Of a DNA stretch of 64,000 bases, positions 5,637 through 43,511 are shown in pieces. Below the pieces are notes generated by a model that was not told the DNA's origin, did no database searches, and saw nothing but the letters and a program-made list of their open reading frames with translations. The DNA lies in NCBI RefSeq assembly GCF_000021645.1, contig NC_011661.1:1396723-1460722 (forward strand), in the 5' to 3' direction. Each line of letters starts with the position of its first letter. The first letter of the stretch is position 1. This DNA is from Dictyoglomus turgidum DSM 6724 (lineage in GTDB: Bacteria; Dictyoglomota; Dictyoglomia; Dictyoglomales; Dictyoglomaceae). Made by a program: the position numbers and the translations under genes.

Positions 5637-6596
5637 CTACCACAAACATTCCACCTCCCAATAAAGTTCCGGTGGAACTCTCTTCTTATATTTTGATACT
5701 TCTTCAAGGGAAATAGGAACAGGGGAATTCTTTTGCCATCCTATCATTACTCCGCCTTCCCCATTAAGAAGTCTCTTTATAGCTTCTACCCCCATAAAGG
5801 TAGCCATATTTCTATCAAAAACCGAGGGTGAACCCCCTCTTTGAATATGCCCGAGAACAACTATTCTTGTAGAAATTCCAAGCTTATCCTCAATCTGCTT
5901 ACCTATAAAATAGGCACTTCCAACACCTTCTGCTACTACAATAATATTGTGTCTCTTTTTCCTTTTTTGCCTTTCTCTCAGTTTTTCTGTAATATATGGA
6001 AAATCAATAGGAACTTCTGGAATAAGAATTATATCTGCACCACTAACAAGTCCTGAAGTAAAGGCTATGAAGCCACACTCTCTACCCATGACCTCAATAA
6101 CAAAGGTTCTTTCGTGAGCTGCGGCTGTATCTCTAATTTTGTTTATCGCATCTATTACATTGTTGCAGGCAGTATCAAAACCTATAGAAAAATCAGTACC
6201 CCACACATCATTATCAATACTGCCAGGAATTCCCACCACATTTATACCCTTTTTAAAAAGATCATAGGCACCCTTAAGAGAACCTTCTCCTCCGATCACT
6301 ATTAAAGCGTCTAATCCATGTTTTTCCATATTTTCAATGGCTTTCTTCTGACCTTCTTCTTCTCTAAACTCATCCGATCTTGCAGTACGTAAGATAGTAC
6401 CACCTTTTTGAACTATCTCGCTTACATCATCTCTTGATAATACCTTAAATTCCCCCTCAATTAAACCCTGATATCCCCTCTCTATCCCTATAATTTCTAT
6501 TCCCTTAGATATTCCAAACCTTACAATAGCCCTTATAGCAGAATTCATTCCAGGAGCATCTCCACCACTTGTAAGCACTCCAATTCTTCTAATCAT
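5637..6596 (-). CDS. pfkA: 6-phosphofructokinase, ATP-dependent type
   Basis: 319 aa, the canonical length of bacterial ATP-PFK. N-terminal GVLTSGGDAPGMNSAIRA (7-24). The donor-site residues are ATP-like: GGEGS (102-106) with Gly at the E. coli 104 position, and PGSIDND (124-130) with Gly at the 124 position; Asp128 is the catalytic base. MGRECGFIA and GHIQRGGSPSVFDR are also conserved. It is the last gene of the run dnaE-accD-accA-pfkA, with its ATG overlapping the accA TGA (ATGA). This contrasts with the PPi-type enzyme 1.1 kb away. An ATP-committed, allosterically controlled glycolytic role is an inference. Confidence 0.95.
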   Translation of the reverse strand: MIRRIGVLTSGGDAPGMNSAIRAIVRFGISKGIEIIGIERGYQGLIEGEFKVLSRDDVSEIVQKGGTILRTARSDEFREEEGQKKAIENMEKHGLDALIVIGGEGSLKGAYDLFKKGINVVGIPGSIDNDVWGTDFSIGFDTACNNVIDAINKIRDTAAAHERTFVIEVMGRECGFIAFTSGLVSGADIILIPEVPIDFPYITEKLRERQKRKKRHNIIVVAEGVGSAYFIGKQIEDKLGISTRIVVLGHIQRGGSPSVFDRNMATFMGVEAIKRLLNGEGGVMIGWQKNSPVPISLEEVSKYKKRVPPELYWEVECLW

Positions 6597-30107: not shown

Positions 30108-31249
30108 GGATTAAATTCCACTGGAGGAAAATCTCTAAATCCAAAGTAATAAAGAAGTATGTCTCTTATTCTTTCACTTGCCCTACCATCTCCATAAGGG
30201 TTTATTGCTTTAGACATGCGAGTGTATTCTTCTTTATCAAGGATAAGAGTTCTCAATTCTTTTATAATATTCTCCTTATACGTCCCAACAATCTTCACAG
30301 TCCCCGCTTCTACTGCCTCAGGCCTTTCTGTAACTTCTCTTAAAACAAGAACAGGCTTTCCTAAGGATGGGGCCTCTTCTTGCAATCCACCAGAATCGGT
30401 CAAAACAAGATAACACTTATCTAATAGATATACCATAGTTATATAGTCTACTGGAGGAATCAATATAGCCTTTTTATTTTTTCCAAGTATTGAATATACT
30501 TGTTCTTTTACTATGGGGTTAGGGTGAACTGGAAATACCACATAAAGATCATCAAACCTTCTTAAAATCTCGTCTAAAGCTAAGACAATGTTTTTAAGGG
30601 GTTCTCCCCAATTTTCTCTTCGATGAGCAGTAACGAGAATAAATTTTTCCGGAAGTTCTTCGACTAATTTTGAGGGTTTTAGTTTATCCATATTCTTATG
30701 GACAAAGAGTAATGTATCTATGACAGTATTTCCTGTTATAAATATGTTTTTTTCAGATATTCTTTCATTTATTAAATTCTCTTTTGCCTTTTTAGTTGGA
30801 GCAAAATGTAAGTCTGCAAGAACTCCAGTAAGATGCCTATTCATTTCTTCAGGATACGGCTGATATTTATCATAAGTTCTTAATCCAGCTTCTACATGTC
30901 CTACAGGGAGTTTTTTATAAAATGCTGCAAGACTCGCAGAAAAAGTTGTAGTAGTATCTCCATGAACAAGTACCATATGAGGAGGATCTTTCTGCCATAT
31001 AAAATCAAGACCCTCAAGAACCTTTACAGTAATTTGGGTAAGAGTTTGTTTCTCTTGCATAATATTTAAATCATAATCCCCTTTTAAGTCAAAAATTTCC
31101 ATCACTTGATCTAAAAGCTCTCTATGCTGAGCTGTTAATATAATCTGAACCTCAAAAAATTCAGAATCCTTTAAAGCCTTTGCTACAGGTGCCATCTTTA
31201 TGGCTTCGGGTCTTGTACCAAATACAAGAGATATCTTCTTTTTACTCAT
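30104..31249 (-). CDS. wecB: UDP-N-acetylglucosamine 2-epimerase (non-hydrolysing)
   Basis: Interconverts UDP-GlcNAc and UDP-ManNAc. 381 aa, GT-B fold: VFGTRPEAIKMAPVAKAL, TAQHRELLDQVMEIF, VHGDTTTTFSASLAAF, HVEAGLRTYDKYQPYPEEMNR and the C-terminal LTDSGGLQEEAPSLGKPVLV are complete. It supplies ManNAc for the TagA-type transferase in the same run. ATG overlaps the speB stop. Confidence 0.96.
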   Translation of the reverse strand: MSKKKISLVFGTRPEAIKMAPVAKALKDSEFFEVQIILTAQHRELLDQVMEIFDLKGDYDLNIMQEKQTLTQITVKVLEGLDFIWQKDPPHMVLVHGDTTTTFSASLAAFYKKLPVGHVEAGLRTYDKYQPYPEEMNRHLTGVLADLHFAPTKKAKENLINERISEKNIFITGNTVIDTLLFVHKNMDKLKPSKLVEELPEKFILVTAHRRENWGEPLKNIVLALDEILRRFDDLYVVFPVHPNPIVKEQVYSILGKNKKAILIPPVDYITMVYLLDKCYLVLTDSGGLQEEAPSLGKPVLVLREVTERPEAVEAGTVKIVGTYKENIIKELRTLILDKEEYTRMSKAINPYGDGRASERIRDILLYYFGFRDFPPVEFNP

Positions 31250-32133
31250 GCTCTTAAAGAATATTTTTTATAATAACCTATAGTTTTATAAATTAGCCTT
31301 GCTGCCATATAATCAGGATACACTAATCCTGGAATTGGAGAAAATTCCACAAAATCGGCCCCTATAACTTTTTTATTTTTGAAAACCTCTCTTAACAAAT
31401 AAAGTACTTGATACCAAGAAAGTCCTCCAGGCTCCGGCGTACCCACAGCAGGCATTTCTGAAGGATTGAACACATCAAAATCAAGAGTTATATAAACTTC
31501 TTCCTCTAAATTCTTTAAGATATCCTCAACTACAAAGGCATCAAATTTCTCTTGAAGTTTGTAGTCAAAATATATTTTTATGTTCTCTCTCTCTTTAACA
31601 TAATCTTTTTCTTCCTCAGACATACTTCTTATACCAACCTGAACTATCTTAATTTTCTCCGAAGCCTCTCTTAAGGCACAAGCATGGCTATTTTCTGTCC
31701 CCTCGTATTCACCTCTTAAATCCGAGTGAGCGTCAAGATGTAATATAGAAAAACTATCATATTTCTTAGTATATGCTCTTAATATCGCCTTAGTAATTGT
31801 ATGCTCCCCACCTAAAAAAACAGGAAAATGTTTGTAATCAATAATATTGAAGGTAAAATTTTCTATTTCTTCAAGAGCTTTTTTTAAATTCCCTAAGGAT
31901 AAAGAAAGATCTGGGTGAGTATATATCCCTACTTCAGCAGGAATATCATCGAGCTCCTCATCATAAAGCTCTAAATTATAAGAAGCCAACAATATTGCTT
32001 GGGGACCTTCCCTGGTACCCTTTTTATAGGTAGTTGTTGTTTCAAGAGGACATGAGATAATGAGTACTTTTGAATCTTCAGGATTTCTAGAGGGAAGGCC
32101 CCCAAAGGAGGGTGTATATCTATACTGCTGCAT
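31246..32133 (-). CDS. speB: Agmatinase-like ureohydrolase
   Basis: 295 aa. Metal-binding motifs FLGGEHTITKA, LHLDAHSDLRGEYEGTENSHA and YITLDFDVFNPSEMPAVGTPEPGG mark an agmatinase/arginase-family enzyme; the last two favour agmatinase. It would yield putrescine from agmatine, or spermidine from N1-aminopropylagmatine if SpeE acts first. Overlaps speD by 14 nt, consistent with a polyamine unit. Confidence 0.9.
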   Translation of the reverse strand: MQQYRYTPSFGGLPSRNPEDSKVLIISCPLETTTTYKKGTREGPQAILLASYNLELYDEELDDIPAEVGIYTHPDLSLSLGNLKKALEEIENFTFNIIDYKHFPVFLGGEHTITKAILRAYTKKYDSFSILHLDAHSDLRGEYEGTENSHACALREASEKIKIVQVGIRSMSEEEKDYVKERENIKIYFDYKLQEKFDAFVVEDILKNLEEEVYITLDFDVFNPSEMPAVGTPEPGGLSWYQVLYLLREVFKNKKVIGADFVEFSPIPGLVYPDYMAARLIYKTIGYYKKYSLRA

Positions 32134-32521
32134 TCCTTCCTCTTTTAAGGAGATTGATAGGAAATTCTCTACCTCTTACCAAGATTTCCCACTCTGTTTT
32201 TTGGGCAGAAAGTTTCTTTTCGATTAATTCTTTTGCAAGGTCAATGTTAAAGGTCTTACAAGAAAAGATATCTACACTAGCATAGTTTAAATCTGGCCAG
32301 GTATGAATCGCTATATGGCTCTCAGCAATCAATACCACACCTGATATTCCCCAATCCAATGGATCATCCTCAGGAACATACCTCATCACATAAGGTGGCA
32401 TGATTTTTTGCATGCCAATCTGTTCTGGAAGCTCATCCAGGAGATCGTAAATAAATTTTACATCTTCCAACTTCTCTTTTGGACAACCATATAAATCTAA
32501 AACTAAGTGCGGTCCTAACAT
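32120..32521 (-). CDS. speD: S-adenosylmethionine decarboxylase proenzyme
   Basis: 133 aa prokaryotic class 1b proenzyme. Self-cleaves before Ser in VLIAESHIAIHTWPDLNYAS to make the pyruvoyl group; His and Cys of the motifs HTWPD and DIFSCKT follow. Produces decarboxylated AdoMet for SpeE. ATG follows AAGGAG. It is the first gene after a strong promoter and so heads a long run down to maf. Some SpeD homologues decarboxylate arginine instead; presence of SpeE favours AdoMet here. Confidence 0.94.
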   Translation of the reverse strand: MLGPHLVLDLYGCPKEKLEDVKFIYDLLDELPEQIGMQKIMPPYVMRYVPEDDPLDWGISGVVLIAESHIAIHTWPDLNYASVDIFSCKTFNIDLAKELIEKKLSAQKTEWEILVRGREFPINLLKRGRNAAV

Positions 32522-32613: not shown

Positions 32614-33855
32614 TTATAGATTTTCCACCTCAAGGGCAATGTCTTTCCGGTAATACATGTTCTCAAAGCTAATATTATTGATATTTTTATAGACCTTATC
32701 TCTTGCCTCTTTAAAACTCTCTCCAAGAGCAACCACATTTAACACTCTACCTCCAGCAGTAACGAGCTTACCATCAACCCATTTAGTACCCGCATGAAAT
32801 ATAATTACTTCTTCACTTTCCCTTATTTTTATCTCTCGTCCCACTTCGTAGTTCCCAGGATACCCTTTTGAAGCAAGCACTACACAAACAGCTTTTTTAT
32901 CCTTTATCTTTTTGTCTTTCCATGTCCCCTCTTTAAAGGAAAGAAAGGAAAAATCTAAAAGTGGTAAGATAACTTGTGCTTCTGGATCTCCAAGTCTTAC
33001 ATTAAATTCAAGAACATAAGGCTCTCCATCCACCAATATAAGCCCACCATATAAGAAACCTTCGTATTGAAGTCCCATTTTATGAATTTCATCCATAAGA
33101 GGCTTAAAAATCTTTTCATCACATACCTTAATAAGCCTCTCATCTATCCAAGGTACAGGAGCGTAAGACCCCATTCCTCCAGTATTAGGTCCAGTATTAC
33201 CCTCTCCTATTCTTTTATAATCCTGAGCAGGTGGTAAATAATAAATCTCCTCCCCCTTAATTGCTGCAATAAGAGAAAATTCTCTACCATTAAGAAATTC
33301 TTCAACAACCACTTTCTTTCCAGCCTCTCCCAAAATCTCTTCGTTAAAAAGTTTATTAGCAATTTCTAATCCTTCCTCTACATTATTTACAATAAACACG
33401 CCCTTTCCTGCAGCAAGTCCATCAGCCTTTATTACCAATGGATATCTTTCCTTTTTTAAAAATTCTTTTATATCACCAAAATTATCAAAAATTCTAAAAT
33501 TTGCAGTTGGTATTCCAGCCTTCCTCATAATCTCCTTTGCAAAAGCCTTGCTAGCTTCAAGTTTTGCCAAATTTTTAACAGGACCCCATATCTCTAATCC
33601 ATTTTCTTTAAATTTGTCAGATATCCCAATAGCAAGAGGTAATTCTGGTCCCACTATCGTCCAATCTATTCTATTTTCTTTAGCAAACTTTACTATAGAG
33701 TCTATATCTTCAACCTTAAAAGGTAGACAATTAGCAATACTACTTATCCCTGCATTTCCAGGAATAGCATAAATCTTATCCACATTACTATCCTGTGAGA
33801 GTTTCCAACAAATAGCATGCTCTCTTCCCCCACTTCCTACAACTAAAACTTTCAT
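32614..33855 (-). CDS. purD: Phosphoribosylamine-glycine ligase
   Basis: 413 aa ATP-grasp ligase making GAR from phosphoribosylamine and glycine. VVGSGGREHAICWKLS, GPELPLAIGISDKF, ADGLAAGKGVFIV, GPNTGGMGSYAPVPW and EFNVRLGDPEAQVILP are present. Last gene of the pur operon, 5 nt after purN. Confidence 0.97.
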   Translation of the reverse strand: MKVLVVGSGGREHAICWKLSQDSNVDKIYAIPGNAGISSIANCLPFKVEDIDSIVKFAKENRIDWTIVGPELPLAIGISDKFKENGLEIWGPVKNLAKLEASKAFAKEIMRKAGIPTANFRIFDNFGDIKEFLKKERYPLVIKADGLAAGKGVFIVNNVEEGLEIANKLFNEEILGEAGKKVVVEEFLNGREFSLIAAIKGEEIYYLPPAQDYKRIGEGNTGPNTGGMGSYAPVPWIDERLIKVCDEKIFKPLMDEIHKMGLQYEGFLYGGLILVDGEPYVLEFNVRLGDPEAQVILPLLDFSFLSFKEGTWKDKKIKDKKAVCVVLASKGYPGNYEVGREIKIRESEEVIIFHAGTKWVDGKLVTAGGRVLNVVALGESFKEARDKVYKNINNISFENMYYRKDIALEVENL

Positions 33856-33860
33856 AATCT

Positions 33861-34478
33861 TTACCCCCTCTTCTTAAAAACTACTCTCCTTCCAATTATC
33901 TCAAAATCTTCCGTTAATATTTTTTTCACCGACTCAACTATAAGCTTATGTTCCTCTTGAAGAATTCTTTCTGCTAAAGTCGCAGGAGTATCATCATCAT
34001 AGACAGGAACTGCTCTTTGTCCAATTATAGGACCCGAGTCTATACCTTCATCCACAAAATGCACAGTACAACCCGAGATTTTTACTCCATACTCCCAAGC
34101 TTGTCTCTGAGCTTCAAGTCCAGGAAAAGAAGGGAGAAGAGATGGATGAATATTTATAATCCTATTGGGAAAAGCTTCAAGTAGGGTCTTACCCACAATC
34201 TTCATATACCCAGCAAGAACTACTAGATCTACTTTAAAATTCTGTAGAACCTCTTTTATTTTCTCTTCATACTCCTTTTTGCTTTTATAATCTTCCCTTC
34301 TTATTACAAATACAGGAATATTTTCTCTTTTTGCCCTCTCTATAGCATAAGCAGAAGGATTATTACTTATAACCACTACAACCTCTGCAGGATAATTCTC
34401 ATCCTTAGATGCATCAATCAATGCCTGAAGATTCGATCCTCTCCCTGAGACTAAAACTCCAAGACGTTTTCTTTCCAT
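33861..34478 (-). CDS. purN: Phosphoribosylglycinamide formyltransferase
   Basis: 205 aa. Transfers formyl from 10-formyl-THF to GAR. GVLVSGRGSNLQALIDA, VVLAGYMKIVGKTLLEAFP, NIHPSLLPSFPGLEAQRQAW (catalytic Asn/His) and GCTVHFVDEGIDSGPIIGQ. Overlaps purM by 28 nt. Confidence 0.97.
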   Translation of the reverse strand: MERKRLGVLVSGRGSNLQALIDASKDENYPAEVVVVISNNPSAYAIERAKRENIPVFVIRREDYKSKKEYEEKIKEVLQNFKVDLVVLAGYMKIVGKTLLEAFPNRIINIHPSLLPSFPGLEAQRQAWEYGVKISGCTVHFVDEGIDSGPIIGQRAVPVYDDDTPATLAERILQEEHKLIVESVKKILTEDFEIIGRRVVFKKRG

Positions 34479-35536
34479 GCGATCTTTACTCCTCTTTCTC
34501 CCTTATTTAATTCACCAATAATATAAGCTTTCTCTCCCAAATCTTTTAAGTCTATTAAAATCTCCTCTGCTCTTCCTGAAACAATAAGTATTAGTCCTAT
34601 TCCCATATTAAATACTCTAAAGGCTTCCTTCCAAGTTAAATTACCCTTTTTAATAAAGAATTTAAAAATCCAAGGTATATCCCAAGAAGAAGAATCTATT
34701 TCTGCCTGAATATTTTTAGGAAGAATCCTGGGGAGGTTTCCGGGTATGCCACCCCCAGTTATATGGGCTATTCCCAAAATATTATCCCTATATTTTTCTA
34801 ACAAGGGCAGAACTACAGGTGGGTAAATTTTAGTGGGCCTTAGTATTTCTTCAAGCAAATCATATCCATCTATCTTTTTTTTGAGGGAGATTCTCTTTTT
34901 CCTCAAAATATATCTTACTAATGAATACCCGTTACTATGAAGTCCAGAAGAAGCTACTCCTATTAAAACATTTCCTTCTTTAATTCTATCCATCTTAGGG
35001 AGTAAATTTTCTTCTTCAACAATACCAACTACGAATCCTACAAGATCTATTTCTTTACCTCTATATATTCCTGGCATTTCTGCAGTCTCTCCTCCGACAA
35101 GACTACAATCTACCTTCTTACAAGCATTAGCAATACTTATGATAACCCTCTTATACACCTCTGGATCTATCTTACTTCCTGCAAAGTAATCCATAAAAAT
35201 CAAAGGCTTCGCTCCTGCGGTAAGTATATCATTAACATTCATTGCTAAAAGATCATCTCCTATGGTGTCTAAACGGTTATGTTTCAAAGCTATAATAAGT
35301 TTTGTCCCTACCCCATCAGTACTTGTAATAATAAGCGGATTCTTATACTCCTGAAAAGGAATTTTAATAACACTAGCAAAACTGTTCCAATAATTAAATA
35401 CGTAAGGTTTATAAGTAGAGACAATGTATCCTTTAACTTCTTCAAGAGCTCTTTCAACCTTATTTATACTTACTCCACTTAAACTATAAGTAATAGCTTT
35501 CCCTTTTCTTTTTTTACCATCTTCTTTCCAAAACAT
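34451..35536 (-). CDS. purM: Phosphoribosylformylglycinamidine cyclo-ligase
   Basis: About 361 aa. ITYSLSGVSINKVERAL near the start, STDGVGTKLIIALKHNR, MNVNDILTAGAKPLIFMDYF, LVGGETAEMPGIYRGKEIDL and AHITGGGIPGNLPRILP. Makes AIR from FGAM. Start is uncertain: ATG 35536 or TTG 35545, both inside the end of purF and without a well-spaced ribosome site, so coupling is likely. Confidence 0.95.
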   Translation of the reverse strand: MFWKEDGKKRKGKAITYSLSGVSINKVERALEEVKGYIVSTYKPYVFNYWNSFASVIKIPFQEYKNPLIITSTDGVGTKLIIALKHNRLDTIGDDLLAMNVNDILTAGAKPLIFMDYFAGSKIDPEVYKRVIISIANACKKVDCSLVGGETAEMPGIYRGKEIDLVGFVVGIVEEENLLPKMDRIKEGNVLIGVASSGLHSNGYSLVRYILRKKRISLKKKIDGYDLLEEILRPTKIYPPVVLPLLEKYRDNILGIAHITGGGIPGNLPRILPKNIQAEIDSSSWDIPWIFKFFIKKGNLTWKEAFRVFNMGIGLILIVSGRAEEILIDLKDLGEKAYIIGELNKGERGVKIAWKENVLEF

Positions 35537-36864
35537 TCTCCGCAATATCCCCTTTCTGGAAGAATACTTAAAAGTCCTTCCATGCTTAAAAAAGCCACAG
35601 AATCAAAGCCTAGAATTTTTGAAATCTCCTCTGGAGAATAGTAATAACTAATTAGCTCCTTGGTATTGGGGATGTCTACTCCATAATGGCAAGGATGAAT
35701 AAGAGGTGGAGAGGAAAGTCTTAAATGTACCTCTTTTGCACCCTCTTCCCTTAACTTTTCAGCAAGAATTCTACCAGTAGTTCCCCTCACCAAAGAGTCA
35801 TCTACAAGAACAATTCTTTTCCCTTTGATTAAATCACCTATAAAAAGAAACTTCATTCTTACCCCCGACTCTCTTTCTTTTTGTTTTGGCTGGATAAAAG
35901 TTCGTCCCACATAATGACTTCTCATAAGTAACATTTGCAAAGGAATGCCAGATTCTTCACTGTATCCTATTGCTGCAGGAATACCTGAGTCGGGCACTGG
36001 AACAACCCAATCTGCATCAACGGGAGATTCTTTGGCCAGAACCTTTCCCATTTCTTTTCGATAGTAATATACCGTCTTCCCATCATATATACTATCAGGT
36101 CTTGAGAAATAAATGAACTCAAAAAGACAAAATCTTGAAATACTACTTTCTAAAAATCTTTCTCTATTTATCTCCCCATTTTTATTGATATAAATTATTT
36201 CACCCGGCTCTATTTCTAAAAGATCAACCAAATGATATTCTTTTAAAGCACAAGTCTCAGAGGCAAAAATAAAGGTACCATCATAAAGTCTCCCTAAGAA
36301 AAGAGGTCTAAAACCATAAGGATCTCTAATTCCATATATGCCTTCCTCAGACCCAATAACCAGAGAATAACTACCTTCTAATTTTGATAAGGCTTCTTTT
36401 AGTCTTTCTTTTAATGTAGTCTTTTGAGATTTGGCTATAAGATGTAAAATCACTTCTGTATCAGAACTGCTTTGAAAAATAACTCCATCCTTTTCCAAAA
36501 CTCTTCGCAAAGAATCCGAATTAGCTATGTGTCCATTATGAGCAAGGGCAACATAACCATATCTTGGCAAATTAACTAAGAAGGGCTGTATATTTTCTTC
36601 CTTTGACTTTCCAGAGGTAGAGTATCTTACATGTCCTATAGCAATTCTACCTTTTAATCTCTTCAATATCTCCTCATTAAAAACTTGAGAGACAAGTCCA
36701 AAATTTTTATGCAAATAATGATCATTACCGGAAAAAGTCACAATACCAACACTTTCTTGTCCTCTATGTTGCAATTTCAAAAGTACCCTATAGGCTATAA
36801 AACTTGCCTGTCCTTTTTCTTTAGTAACTACACCTACAACCCCACACTCCTCTCTTATCTTCAT
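35479..36864 (-). CDS. purF: Amidophosphoribosyltransferase
   Basis: Commits PRPP to purines. 461 aa. The short propeptide MKIREE precedes Cys7, the glutaminase nucleophile after processing, as in the Bacillus-type enzyme. GHVRYSTSGKS, ALAHNGHIANSD and the PRPP loop IVLVDDSLVRGTTGRILAEK are clear. The C-terminal GYCGECFG with an internal Cys fits the Fe-S-containing type. PRPP, its substrate, is the presumed ligand of the riboswitch upstream of the operon. Confidence 0.97.
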   Translation of the reverse strand: MKIREECGVVGVVTKEKGQASFIAYRVLLKLQHRGQESVGIVTFSGNDHYLHKNFGLVSQVFNEEILKRLKGRIAIGHVRYSTSGKSKEENIQPFLVNLPRYGYVALAHNGHIANSDSLRRVLEKDGVIFQSSSDTEVILHLIAKSQKTTLKERLKEALSKLEGSYSLVIGSEEGIYGIRDPYGFRPLFLGRLYDGTFIFASETCALKEYHLVDLLEIEPGEIIYINKNGEINRERFLESSISRFCLFEFIYFSRPDSIYDGKTVYYYRKEMGKVLAKESPVDADWVVPVPDSGIPAAIGYSEESGIPLQMLLMRSHYVGRTFIQPKQKERESGVRMKFLFIGDLIKGKRIVLVDDSLVRGTTGRILAEKLREEGAKEVHLRLSSPPLIHPCHYGVDIPNTKELISYYYSPEEISKILGFDSVAFLSMEGLLSILPERGYCGECFGKKMVKKEKGKLLLIV

Positions 36865-36870
36865 AATATT

Positions 36871-39009
36871 TCACCTTCTTCGTAAAAATTCATTAATATT
36901 CCTTTTAATAAAAGGCTCTACTATAAATTCCTTCTCTTTTACTATACCAATTTTTTGAGTTTTTAATCCGTATTTCTCTATAAAATCTAAATACTTTATT
37001 TCTTTGTCTTTATTAATCTCAACTACTATTAAACCTGAGCCTTCTCCAATTAAATTCTCAATTTTATCTGAGGGCAAAACTATTTCTACTCCTTTCTCTC
37101 CCCAGAAGCTCATCTCAAGAAGAGTACTAAGAAGCCCACCCTCACTTATATCATGAGCTGACAGGACAATATCCCTTTCTTTTCTTATCTCCTCCATGAA
37201 AAACTTTAGTTTTCTCTCCCATATGAGATCTACATAAGGAGGTTCTCCTTCTATCTTACCAAATATGTCCTTTATGAATTTAGATCCTCCTAAGGATAAC
37301 CAAGAAAAATCCCCTATTAAATAAACAGGATTTCCAACCACTTTAAATCCAGGTTTTATTAAATAACTTAAATCTTCCAGAATACCAACCATACCTATAA
37401 TTGGAGTTGGAAATATAGTATTTTCAGCTTGTCCATTATAAAAGCTAACATTCCCACTTACTATTGGTATTTCAAGAGCCCTTGAGGCAAGGTCTATCCC
37501 TTTTATCGTTTCTCTAAACTGATAAAACACTTCTGCTTCATCAGGATCACCAAAGTTAAGTCCATCAGTAATTGCTAAAGGTCTTCCTCCAACACATAAA
37601 ATATTTCTACATGCTTCTGTAACAGCATACATGGCACCTCTCTTAGGATTAAGGTAACAGTATCTTCCATTTCCGTCAACGACTACAGCAATACCCTTAT
37701 TAGTTCCCTTTATTCTTAAAACAGCGGCATCTCCGAATCCAGGAGAAAAAACCGTATTAGTTTGTACTGAATAATCATACTGACGATATATCTTCTCTTT
37801 TATAAATAGATCATTAACAAGCTCTTCCAAAAATCTATTCACATGCTCTTTCTTGACTCGAGAGCCGAAATCGAAAGCTAAATTTGGAACCTCATAGTCT
37901 TTATAAGGAGGATCAAAAATCAAAGATCCATCCACAAGAAGCTCCGTAGGAAGATCGACAACTTTTTCTCCCTTGAAATAGACAACAAACTTTTCCTCCT
38001 CTATTACTTCGCCTATAATTTCTGCCTCTAAATCCCATTTCTTAAATATACTTATTATCTCCTCTGCTTTCTCTGGTTTTATAACAAGAAGCATTCTTTC
38101 TTGAGATTCTGAAAGTAATATCTCTTCTGCAGTCATATTCTCTTCTCTTTGAGGAACTTTATCTAAATATACCTTCACTCCACTTCTTCCCCTTCTTGCA
38201 GATTCTGAGAGGCTGCTAACCAGTCCTGCAGCACCAAGATCCTGAATTCCGATTACCCCCTCAGTAGAGGCTGCTTCTAAGCAAGATTCAATCAAAAGCT
38301 TCCCCAAAAAAGGATCTCCTACTTGAACAGAGGGTCTTTTCTTATGTACCTCATCATCTAACTTCTCTGAAGCAAAACTTGCACCTTGTAAACCATCTCT
38401 TCCTGTTTTTGCTCCTACAAGAAGTAGAAGATTTCCCTTGCCTTCAGCTTTACCTCTATATGATTTTTGTCCTGGAGTCAGTAAACCAATACACATCACA
38501 TTTACTAAAGGATTTGAGGAATAGCAATCCTCAAAGACAATCTCTCCCCCTACCACAGGAACTCCTATACAGTTCCCGTAAAAACTAATTCCACCTACAA
38601 CTCCCTCAAACAAATATTTATTTCTTCCTTTTTCAATAGGTCCAAATCTAAGAGAATCAAGCAAAGCTATAGGTCTTGCTCCAATAGCAAGTATATCCCT
38701 TACTATACCTCCAACTCCTGTTGCCGCTCCCTGAAAAGGTTCTACAGCTGAGGGATGATTATGACTTTCTATCTTAAAAACTACTCTATATCCATCCCCT
38801 AAATTTACTATTCCAGCATTCTCTCCTGGACCTTGTTCTACCCACTCTGCTTTAGTAAGAAAATCCTTCAGATATTTCCTTGAATGTTTATAACTACAAT
38901 GTTCTGACCATATAACCGATATTACAGACCACTCTAAATCATTAGGTTCCCTTCCCAGTAGTTTAATAGCATGCTTTATTTCTTCCTCTTTAAGCCCAAA
39001 TACACCCAT
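36871..39009 (-). CDS. purL: FGAM synthase, synthetase subunit (small PurL)
   Basis: About 712 aa, the small type that works with separate PurQ and Pur[67 protein letters not shown]-like [10 protein letters not shown] and [20 protein letters not shown]. Start at ATG 39009 ([10 protein letters not shown]) with GGAGTGA upstream; a GTG at 39021 sits on top of that site. Confidence 0.97.
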
Positions 39010-39031
39010 TTTTCTTATCACTCCTTGAATT

Positions 39032-39688
39032 TTATTCTAATAAAGTTAAAAATAGATTTAAACCTGAGGTGCTACCAAGAATCTCTTCTACAGCTCTCTC
39101 AGGATGAGGCATAAGTCCCATAACATTTCCTTTTTTATTTATAATACCAGCAATATTCTCCAAAGACCCATTAGGGTTTTCACCGTAATATTTAAGCACT
39201 ATTTGGTTATTTTCCTTTAATTCTTCAAGTTCCCTTTTAGAGATGTAATATCTTCCCTCTTTATGAGCTATGGGCATCTTAAGAATCTCACCAACTTTGT
39301 AATTTTTTAAAAACAGAGTATTATTGTTAATTACCTCTAAGAAAACTTCCTTACATATAAAAGAATTAGTAATATTAGGAAGCATAGCCCCAGGAAGAAG
39401 ACCAGCCTCAAGAAGAATTTGAAAACCATTGCATATTCCCAATACATAGCCACCCTTTTTAGCAAAATCTATAATTTCATTCATTATAGGAGAAAACCTC
39501 GCAATAGCTCCTGCCCTCAAATAATCCCCATAAGAAAAACCGCCAGGAAGAATAACTACATCTACATTTTTTAAATCGTGTTCTTTATGCCATAAATAGA
39601 CTGGATCATGTCCTACCAATCTCAAAGCATGATAAGTATCCATATCACAATTTGTGCCTGGAAAAACTACAACTCCAACCCTCATCAT
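39032..39688 (-). CDS. purQ: FGAM synthase, glutaminase subunit
   Basis: 218 aa class I glutamine amidotransferase. [53 protein letters not shown] (nucleophile Cys) and the catalytic His/Glu in [10 protein letters not shown]. Delivers ammonia to PurL. ATG overlaps the purS stop. Confidence 0.97.
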
Positions 39689-39936
39689 TCTTCCACCCTT
39701 ATAACAAAATCTTCAGTAACAGGATTTGCAAGAAAGATTTCACTCATTTTTTTTACCTTACTAATAATCTCTTCCTTGTTCTCTCCAAGGATATCTATCT
39801 TGAGTACTTTTCCTATTCTTACCTCTTCCACTTCCTTAAAACCCAAATTATGGAGAGCATCTTTAACCGTCTTTCCTTGAGGATCAAAAATACCCTCTTT
39901 CAAAAATATCTCTAAAATTACTGTCCACTTTTTCAC
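39685..39936 (-). CDS. purS: FGAM synthase, PurS subunit
   Basis: 83 aa. [22 protein letters not shown] and [11 protein letters not shown] are the family blocks. PurS bridges PurQ and PurL. Confidence 0.95.
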
Positions 39937-41263: not shown

Positions 41264-41278
41264 TTTTCATACCTCCTT

Positions 41279-41340
41279 AAAAACAAAAGCCCAAGCTTAT
41301 AGGTTCTCCATACGAGGGAACCTACCCGCCTGGGCTTTTA
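41279..41340 (-). terminator. Conditional terminator of the pur riboswitch
   Basis: Minus strand: AAAAGCCCA (41331-41339) pairs with TGGGCTTTT (41285-41293), with an inner stem TAGGTTC/GAACCTA around a 10-11-nt loop, then GTTTTT. The 5' arm is also part of the PRPP-like aptamer (GGGATAAAAGCCC), so ligand binding should block terminator formation. Confidence 0.8.
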
Positions 41341-41405
41341 TCCCTTCGGTGTAGCAAGACCTTTAATCTTGCCCGCTCCGCTTGGATCTTTTGACCCTGA
41401 GGAGC
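41319..41405 (-). promoter_or_regulatory. PRPP (ykkC-class) riboswitch aptamer, probable
   Basis: Minus strand elements in order: GCTCC (41401-41405) closing with GGAGC (41375-41379); TCAGGGTC-AAAA-GATCCAAG between them; P3 GCAAGA/TCTTGC (41367-41372 with 41354-41359); TACACCG; GGGATAAAAGCCC (41332-41344); AGGCGGGTAGGTT. The last two blocks match my memory of PRPP riboswitches closely. The region between GGGTC and GATCC is much shorter than the usual P2 arm. Position before a pur operon and overlap with a terminator fit a PRPP-activated switch. Confidence 0.72.
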
Positions 41406-41412
41406 GCTTCCG

Positions 41413-41479
41413 CTCGTAGTCAGGCAATTTACGGTTGCCTGGTAGAGACTCCCGAGCCATATTCCCGGGATTATACGAG
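41413..41479 (-). promoter_or_regulatory. Guanine (purine) riboswitch aptamer
   Basis: Minus strand: P1 CTCGTA/TACGAG, the core TATAATCCCGGGAATATGG, P2 CCCGGG/CTCGGG-type stem, GTCTCTACC, P3 CAGGCAA/TTGCCTG with loop CCGTAAA, then GACTACGAG. The base after GA is C (equivalent to C74), predicting guanine or hypoxanthine rather than adenine. Together with the downstream aptamer it forms a tandem element. Confidence 0.95.
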
Positions 41480-41489
41480 ATCTTAGTCA

Positions 41490-42802
<1,313 letters not shown>

Positions 42803-42923: not shown

Positions 42924-43511
42924 ATGGAATTTATAGCACCAAGTTGGGAAGAAATTTACAATCTATGTCTTGATCTTTCAGATAGAATAAAGCAACAAAA
43001 ATACGAACCTGAAATAATCGTAGGAATAGCAAGAGGAGGCTGGATACCTGCAAGAATCCTTTCAGACCTTCTTGGTAATTCTTATACTGCAAACCTAAAG
43101 ATTGACTTTTATAGAGGAGTAGGAGAAACAAAAGATAGACCTGTAATAACTCAAACCATTTCCACAATAGTAGAAGGTAGAAAAGTACTAATCACCGATG
43201 ATGTAGCAGATAGTGGAAAAAGTCTTAAAGTAGCAAGAGAACATCTGGAACAATGTGGAGCCTCCCAAGTAAAAATAGCTACCATTTATTACAAACCATG
43301 GTCTATAGTGAAACCTGACTTTTACATAAGCGAAACTGAAGCCTGGATAGTCTTTCCTTGGGAGAGAAAAGAATTTGTCTATAAAATGTATGAGAGCTTA
43401 AAGTCAAAAGGTCTAAATTCAAAAGATGTTTTAAGGGAACTTCTTAAAACCGGACTTCCTGAAGACCTTCTTAAGAGATTTCTTAAAGATATCACAGGAG
43501 AAGAATTATGA
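42924..43511 (+). CDS. Purine-type phosphoribosyltransferase
   Basis: 195 aa. PRPP-binding loop VLITDDVADSGKSLKVAREH, and IIVGIARGGWIPARILSDLL near the N-terminus. The fold resembles the xanthine/hypoxanthine-guanine salvage enzymes found in archaea and some bacteria; KPDFYISETEAWIVFPWER is typical of that subgroup. A C-terminal extension (YESLKSKGLNSKDVLREL) is of unknown role. AAAGGAGG precedes the ATG. Its TGA/ATG overlap with the next gene indicates an operon. The base substrate is not decided by sequence. Confidence 0.82.
   Translation: MEFIAPSWEEIYNLCLDLSDRIKQQKYEPEIIVGIARGGWIPARILSDLLGNSYTANLKIDFYRGVGETKDRPVITQTISTIVEGRKVLITDDVADSGKSLKVAREHLEQCGASQVKIATIYYKPWSIVKPDFYISETEAWIVFPWERKEFVYKMYESLKSKGLNSKDVLRELLKTGLPEDLLKRFLKDITGEEL

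Follow-up and report, generated by a model that had tools for sequence, protein, structure and literature searches.

The tandem guanine-PRPP riboswitch has been described as an IMPLY gate, and the codA example from B. megaterium was tested experimentally (Sherlock et al. 2018, PMC5912903). The 257 PRPP riboswitches of that study were placed in Firmicutes (PMC5912903). In the tandem of T. mathranii, helix P0 of the PRPP sensor and helix P1 of the guanine sensor have been proposed to be mutually exclusive (Knappenberger et al. 2018, PMC6031431). The exact conformational changes of the tandem are still regarded as not established in a 2022 review (PMC9481103). We analyzed a leader in front of purB in Dictyoglomus turgidum, for which a tandem guanine-PRPP arrangement before the purine operon had been predicted. 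Its aptamer order, close spacing, single terminator overlapping the PRPP aptamer and downstream purine-related genes match the published gate (PMC5912903), as predicted; in contrast, the host here belongs to Dictyoglomota and not to Firmicutes. A tandem guanine-PRPP riboswitch very probably controls the transcription of purB-purSQLFMND through one terminator.

D. turgidum is a hot-spring bacterium and an extreme thermophile. Its genome is a single contig of 1,855,560 bases, and the window, namely the 64 kb stretch of DNA that was analyzed, corresponds to positions 1396723-1460722. The leader (41498-41279, minus strand; about 220 bases) lies between eno (42802-41501) and purB (41263-39956), contains two structured elements and is much more stable in its fold than shuffled sequences (z -6.4, 0 of 200). 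The purB gene encodes adenylosuccinate lyase (TIGR00928, 512.6 bits) and begins with GTG; its ribosome-binding site, AAGGAGGT (41271-41278, minus strand), is not within the terminator hairpin described below. Downstream of purB, seven more purine genes, purS, purQ, purL, purF, purM, purN and purD, are present as open reading frames on the same strand (32614-39936), and their NCBIfam equivalog matches are above the cut-offs. Promoter-like boxes TTGAAT (41518-41513) and TATAAT (41495-41490), separated by 17 bases on the minus strand (41490-41518), overlap the 3' end of eno. These boxes have 10 of 12 consensus bases, and 2 such sites were found in the region as compared with 0.7 expected. In two relatives with a different upstream sequence, TTGACA and TATACT stand immediately 5' of the aptamer. 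Two neighboring loci should be mentioned. A phosphoribosyltransferase-like gene (42924-43511), divergent from eno, lies near the purine operon, and Rfam gave no riboswitch match upstream of it. In addition, about 90 bases after purD on the same strand, there are speD, which encodes adenosylmethionine decarboxylase, and a gene resembling agmatinase (31246-32521).

The first element is a guanine (guanine-I) aptamer, which extends from P1 to P1 at 41413-41479 on the minus strand. The Rfam Purine model (RF00167) matched 41498-41397 over its entire length with 90.5 bits (cut-off 37; E 3e-15 for a search of all 64 kb). Thus, the covariance search proposed with the original prediction gave a clear guanine aptamer, and the predicted equivalent of C74 was found at 41419. 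The contact bases of guanine riboswitches are U22, U51 and C74 (PMC9295807). Because all three are present and J2/3 is without the insertions of the xanthine-II and guanine-II variants, guanine is the expected ligand. The 5' strand of P1 is CTCGTA (41474-41479, minus strand). The 3' strand is TACGAG (41413-41418, minus strand), which is also the outer part of the 5' strand of PRPP P0 and is therefore a shared switch strand; it is unchanged across four Dictyoglomaceae genomes.

The second element was not recognized by Rfam in the same manner. At curated cut-offs there was no ykkC match in the window, and these cut-offs alone would overlook the second aptamer: the Guanidine-I (ykkC) model RF00442, with a cut-off of 63 bits, gave 36.3 bits (E 4e-5 when 361 bases were scanned). 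Because this match was sub-threshold, we gathered relatives and built our own covariance model. A sequence pattern based on the conserved 3' core was found in at least 119 stretches of GTDB genomes, and among the matches listed nearly all were labeled as Bacillota. An alignment of 25 PRPP-like stretches from this pattern scan, none of them from Dictyoglomus, was the basis of the model, termed R1. Its consensus fold comprises helices P0, P1, P2 and P3, with both-sided changes in 14 pairs. R1 matched 41411-41315 on the minus strand with 86.6 bits (E 8.7e-22), and this was the sole R1 match within the window. In three other Dictyoglomaceae, R1 gave 84-88 bits. Because the search pattern prescribed the 3' core of the training sequences, the fit in this part is to some extent predetermined; the 5' half and P0-P3 were free. 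The element at 41315-41411 is assigned as a PRPP (ykkC subtype 2b) aptamer with P0, P1, P2, P3 and the conserved 3' core, and the proposed ykkC/PRPP search had two outcomes, a sub-threshold match with Rfam and a strong match with our PRPP model. The blocks TACACCG, GGGATAAAAGCCC and AGGCGGGTAGGTT, from which a second structured element had been predicted, are all found where they were placed.

The ligand of this element was considered from the bases that contact PRPP, which include A5, G6, G48, C49, C77, C78, G96, G104 and G105 (PMC6031431). We mapped the positions of the crystal paper through the order of the named bases on the alignment; the text of the paper holds no full sequence. By this mapping, all nine bases are present in the Dictyoglomus aptamer. 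The PRPP core ACACCGAAGGGATAAAAGCCCAGGCGGGTAGG (41321-41352, minus strand) contains C75 at 41351, C77 at 41349, C78 at 41348, G96 at 41330, G104 at 41322 and G105 at 41321. Base 49 sets PRPP and ppGpp aptamers apart from guanidine-I (PMC6031431). The equivalent base is C, a pyrimidine, at 41380, and guanidine-I is excluded on this point. The element resembles guanidine-I (RF00442) in the ykkC fold and the 3' core, whereas its sub-cut-off score, the C at base 49, the presence of P0 and the purine genes, which are not guanidine-related, set it apart. Guanidine-I-like elements before small multidrug-exporter-like genes received 33-37 bits from R1.

The distinction from ppGpp is finer. The aptamers of subtypes 2a (ppGpp) and 2b are closely alike, and the R1 score alone does not split PRPP from ppGpp elements: a gltB-linked control element of another genome scored 67.7 bits. 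This ykkC element (G083:C1:368036-368148) precedes a gene similar to gltB in a GC-rich genome of 2.2 Mb. Its base 96 is A or absent, as is expected of ppGpp types, and it is probably a ppGpp riboswitch. Because R1 does not separate the two classes, the assignment to PRPP relies on the identity of base 96 and on the location before purB. If the second aptamer of D. turgidum sensed ppGpp, guanine and the stringent response would be coupled in this leader. This is very improbable, since a G stands at the position of G96, and the single substitution G96A turns the PRPP aptamer into a ppGpp aptamer (PMC6031431). Moreover, purB and the de novo purine set are the usual context of PRPP elements, and the excerpted text of the 2022 review (PMC9481103) contains no guanine-ppGpp tandem.

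The same tandem stands before purB in D. thermophilum and in two genomes of a sister genus. Single guanine riboswitches upstream of purine genes are common. Together with the ykkC score below the Rfam cut-off, this would agree with an ordinary guanine off-switch, in which the guanine aptamer is functional and the second element has lost ligand binding and is a mere part of the switch. We consider such a loss highly unlikely, because every PRPP-contact base that was checked is kept and the helices vary in compensatory fashion among the four Dictyoglomaceae: compensatory changes were found in 8 pairs of guanine P2, of PRPP P1, P2 and P3, and of the terminator. Furthermore, the 32-base PRPP core has only one difference between the two genera (G to A before CCC). 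PRPP remains the expected ligand of the second aptamer, its binding being predicted from the homologous B. megaterium gate, which has been assayed.

An intrinsic terminator hairpin (41285-41339, minus strand; -35.0 kcal/mol at 37 °C) is formed by a 5' arm at 41339-41318 and a 3' arm at 41306-41285, and is followed by the U tract GTTTTT (41279-41284, minus strand). Its 5' arm and the 3' region of the PRPP aptamer (41411-41315) overlap, which bears out the prediction that the terminator shares this arm with the second aptamer. A consensus terminator scan with a loop limit of 8 bases did not list this terminator; the loop here is longer. In the relatives, one terminator pair changes from G-C to A-U in compensatory fashion, and the U tract of the sister genus is interrupted (UUUUAAAAUUU).

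The two aptamers are also wired to each other through one strand, a point that was absent from the original prediction. The 3' strand of P0 consists of TTCC followed by CTCGTA (41311-41320, minus strand); its CTCGTA part is a repeat of the 5' strand of guanine P1 and is located in the terminator loop. UACGAG (41418-41413) can pair either with CUCGUA at 41479-41474 (P1) or with the identical CUCGUA at 41316-41311 (P0), and the two bound states are therefore mutually exclusive. In P0, UACGAG-c-GGAA pairs with UUCC-CUCGUA to form 10 pairs with one bulged C (-12.8 kcal/mol). Only 1 base separates guanine P1 from the GGAA of P0, there is no terminator between the aptamers, and one terminator is shared. 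When the RNA extends no further than P0, folding into P0 is favored over folding into P1 by 6.1 kcal/mol at 37 °C and by 3.1 kcal/mol at 75 °C, where folding energies are rough. Once the complete hairpin is transcribed, the folding energies favor the terminator state. As compared with the T. mathranii PRPP aptamer (PMC6031431), the ligand-contact bases are identical and the exclusion of P0 and P1 is likewise predicted, whereas sequence and host differ; the Dictyoglomus P0 contains a single bulged base and is extended by six pairs, all of them from guanine P1.

Over the two strands of the window there are 15 occurrences of CTCGTA, and the repeat after the PRPP core might have arisen by chance beside two independent, non-competing aptamers. 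This explanation is improbable. The probability that CTCGTA would fall by chance at exactly this position is about 2e-4, and the repeat is kept in all four Dictyoglomaceae while the adjoining bases of the terminator loop vary. In addition, other tandem loci have an equivalent overlap of P1 and P0 with different sequences, such as CTCAT, CTTATA and ACCGTA.

These other loci were used for a strand-swap comparison of 83 tandem loci, four from Dictyoglomaceae and 79 others. In a large majority of them, P0 includes part of the 3' strand of guanine P1; for a few loci, the automated extraction or the best duplex was located elsewhere. The loci's own P0 duplexes had a mean of -8.1 kcal/mol, as compared with -6.8 (sd 0.27) when 3' strands were swapped among loci (0 of 500), and 4.05 bases of P1 were re-paired with own strands versus 3.69 with swapped strands (5 of 500); these controls keep the kinship between loci in the statistic. 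TATGAG strands have CTCA or CTCT as a partner, never CTCG. TACGAG strands have CTCG in five loci, including the four Dictyoglomaceae, and CTCA or CTCT in six. The overlap is partial in most of the other loci examined, whereas the Dictyoglomus P0 re-pairs the whole 3' strand of guanine P1. In Dictyoglomaceae the re-pairing covers all six bases of P1, and complete re-pairing is also seen elsewhere, for example in L003, L093, L100 and L111. P0 is strongest in Dictyoglomaceae, at -12.8 to -13.0 kcal/mol, the next among the 83 loci being -11.6 kcal/mol.

On the preferred reading as a guanine-PRPP gate, we propose the following mechanism, in which the direction of control and the logic are taken from the B. 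megaterium gate. When guanine is bound, P1 of the first aptamer (CUCGUA/UACGAG) would be locked. UACGAG would then be withheld from P0, the PRPP aptamer would be unclosed and the terminator would form. When PRPP is bound, the 10 pairs of P0 would be locked and guanine P1 would be opened. P0 and the PRPP core would sequester the strand needed by the terminator, and transcription would continue. In other words, the operon would be off only at high guanine and low PRPP, which is IMPLY logic. The leader may act as a timing-dependent switch, which is on unless guanine is bound.

In a survey of 389 genomes, R1 found outside Dictyoglomaceae one variant tandem, one ppGpp-like element linked to gltB and otherwise weak matches only; the weak matches that were examined were guanidine-I-like. 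In the variant tandem (G058:C1:6600515-6600628), a guanine aptamer is followed by a variant ykkC-type element (ACACCACTAAGGGACAAAAACCCAGAAGG; R1 53 bits), the core of which departs from the PRPP consensus. Genes similar to xpt and pbuX follow it immediately, in a genome of 6.8 Mb. Of the matches to the 3' core pattern, two with non-Firmicute labels were set aside. One, on a record labeled Desulfovibrio (L010), encodes a PurB that lies within a Syntrophomonadaceae/Dethiobacter group, and the record is probably a stray contig. The other, on a record labeled NPL-UPA2 (L020), has a single PRPP element and a PurB near Bacillota sequences. Elsewhere, a possible decayed guanine aptamer was seen upstream of the PRPP core in L055 (near 410-500) and L012 (near 5950-6066), and these leaders perhaps represent an intermediate between the tandem and the single form.

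A quick tree was built from 71 PurB proteins, and those of Dictyoglomaceae did not fall among the Bacillota PurB encoded downstream of PRPP elements; the tree has long branches and bears on the sampled Bacillota, not on deeper placing. Because of this placement, a recent joint transfer of purB and leader from the sampled Bacillota is unsupported; the leader may have been transferred separately or long ago. A wider reading, that the tandem gate is old in Dictyoglomota instead of a recent import from Firmicutes and carries a full strand-swap toggle in which P0 copies the entire P1 strand, is tentative and on balance doubtful. The longer helices of the toggle are perhaps due to the hot-growing host.

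In the literature examined, we found no report that connects Dictyoglomus to purine riboswitches, and the sequence lists of 2018 may already include these genomes. As far as this literature shows, Dictyoglomota is a new phylum for a known tandem gate, the published description of which is confined to Firmicutes. The system is of a known type and not a new kind; its strand swap is unusually complete, and its function would be that of the B. megaterium gate. The range of a rare all-RNA logic gate would thereby come to include a further phylum and an extreme thermophile. In a third sister-genus genome, which is 99% complete, purB-purS-purQ-purL are present and their leader is without a riboswitch (G004:C1:369261-373547). 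This absence is a loss, and the retained purB operon provides a natural comparison. The Dictyoglomaceae copies have an unusually clean strand swap, which makes them a good test RNA for the proposed opposition of the two aptamers.
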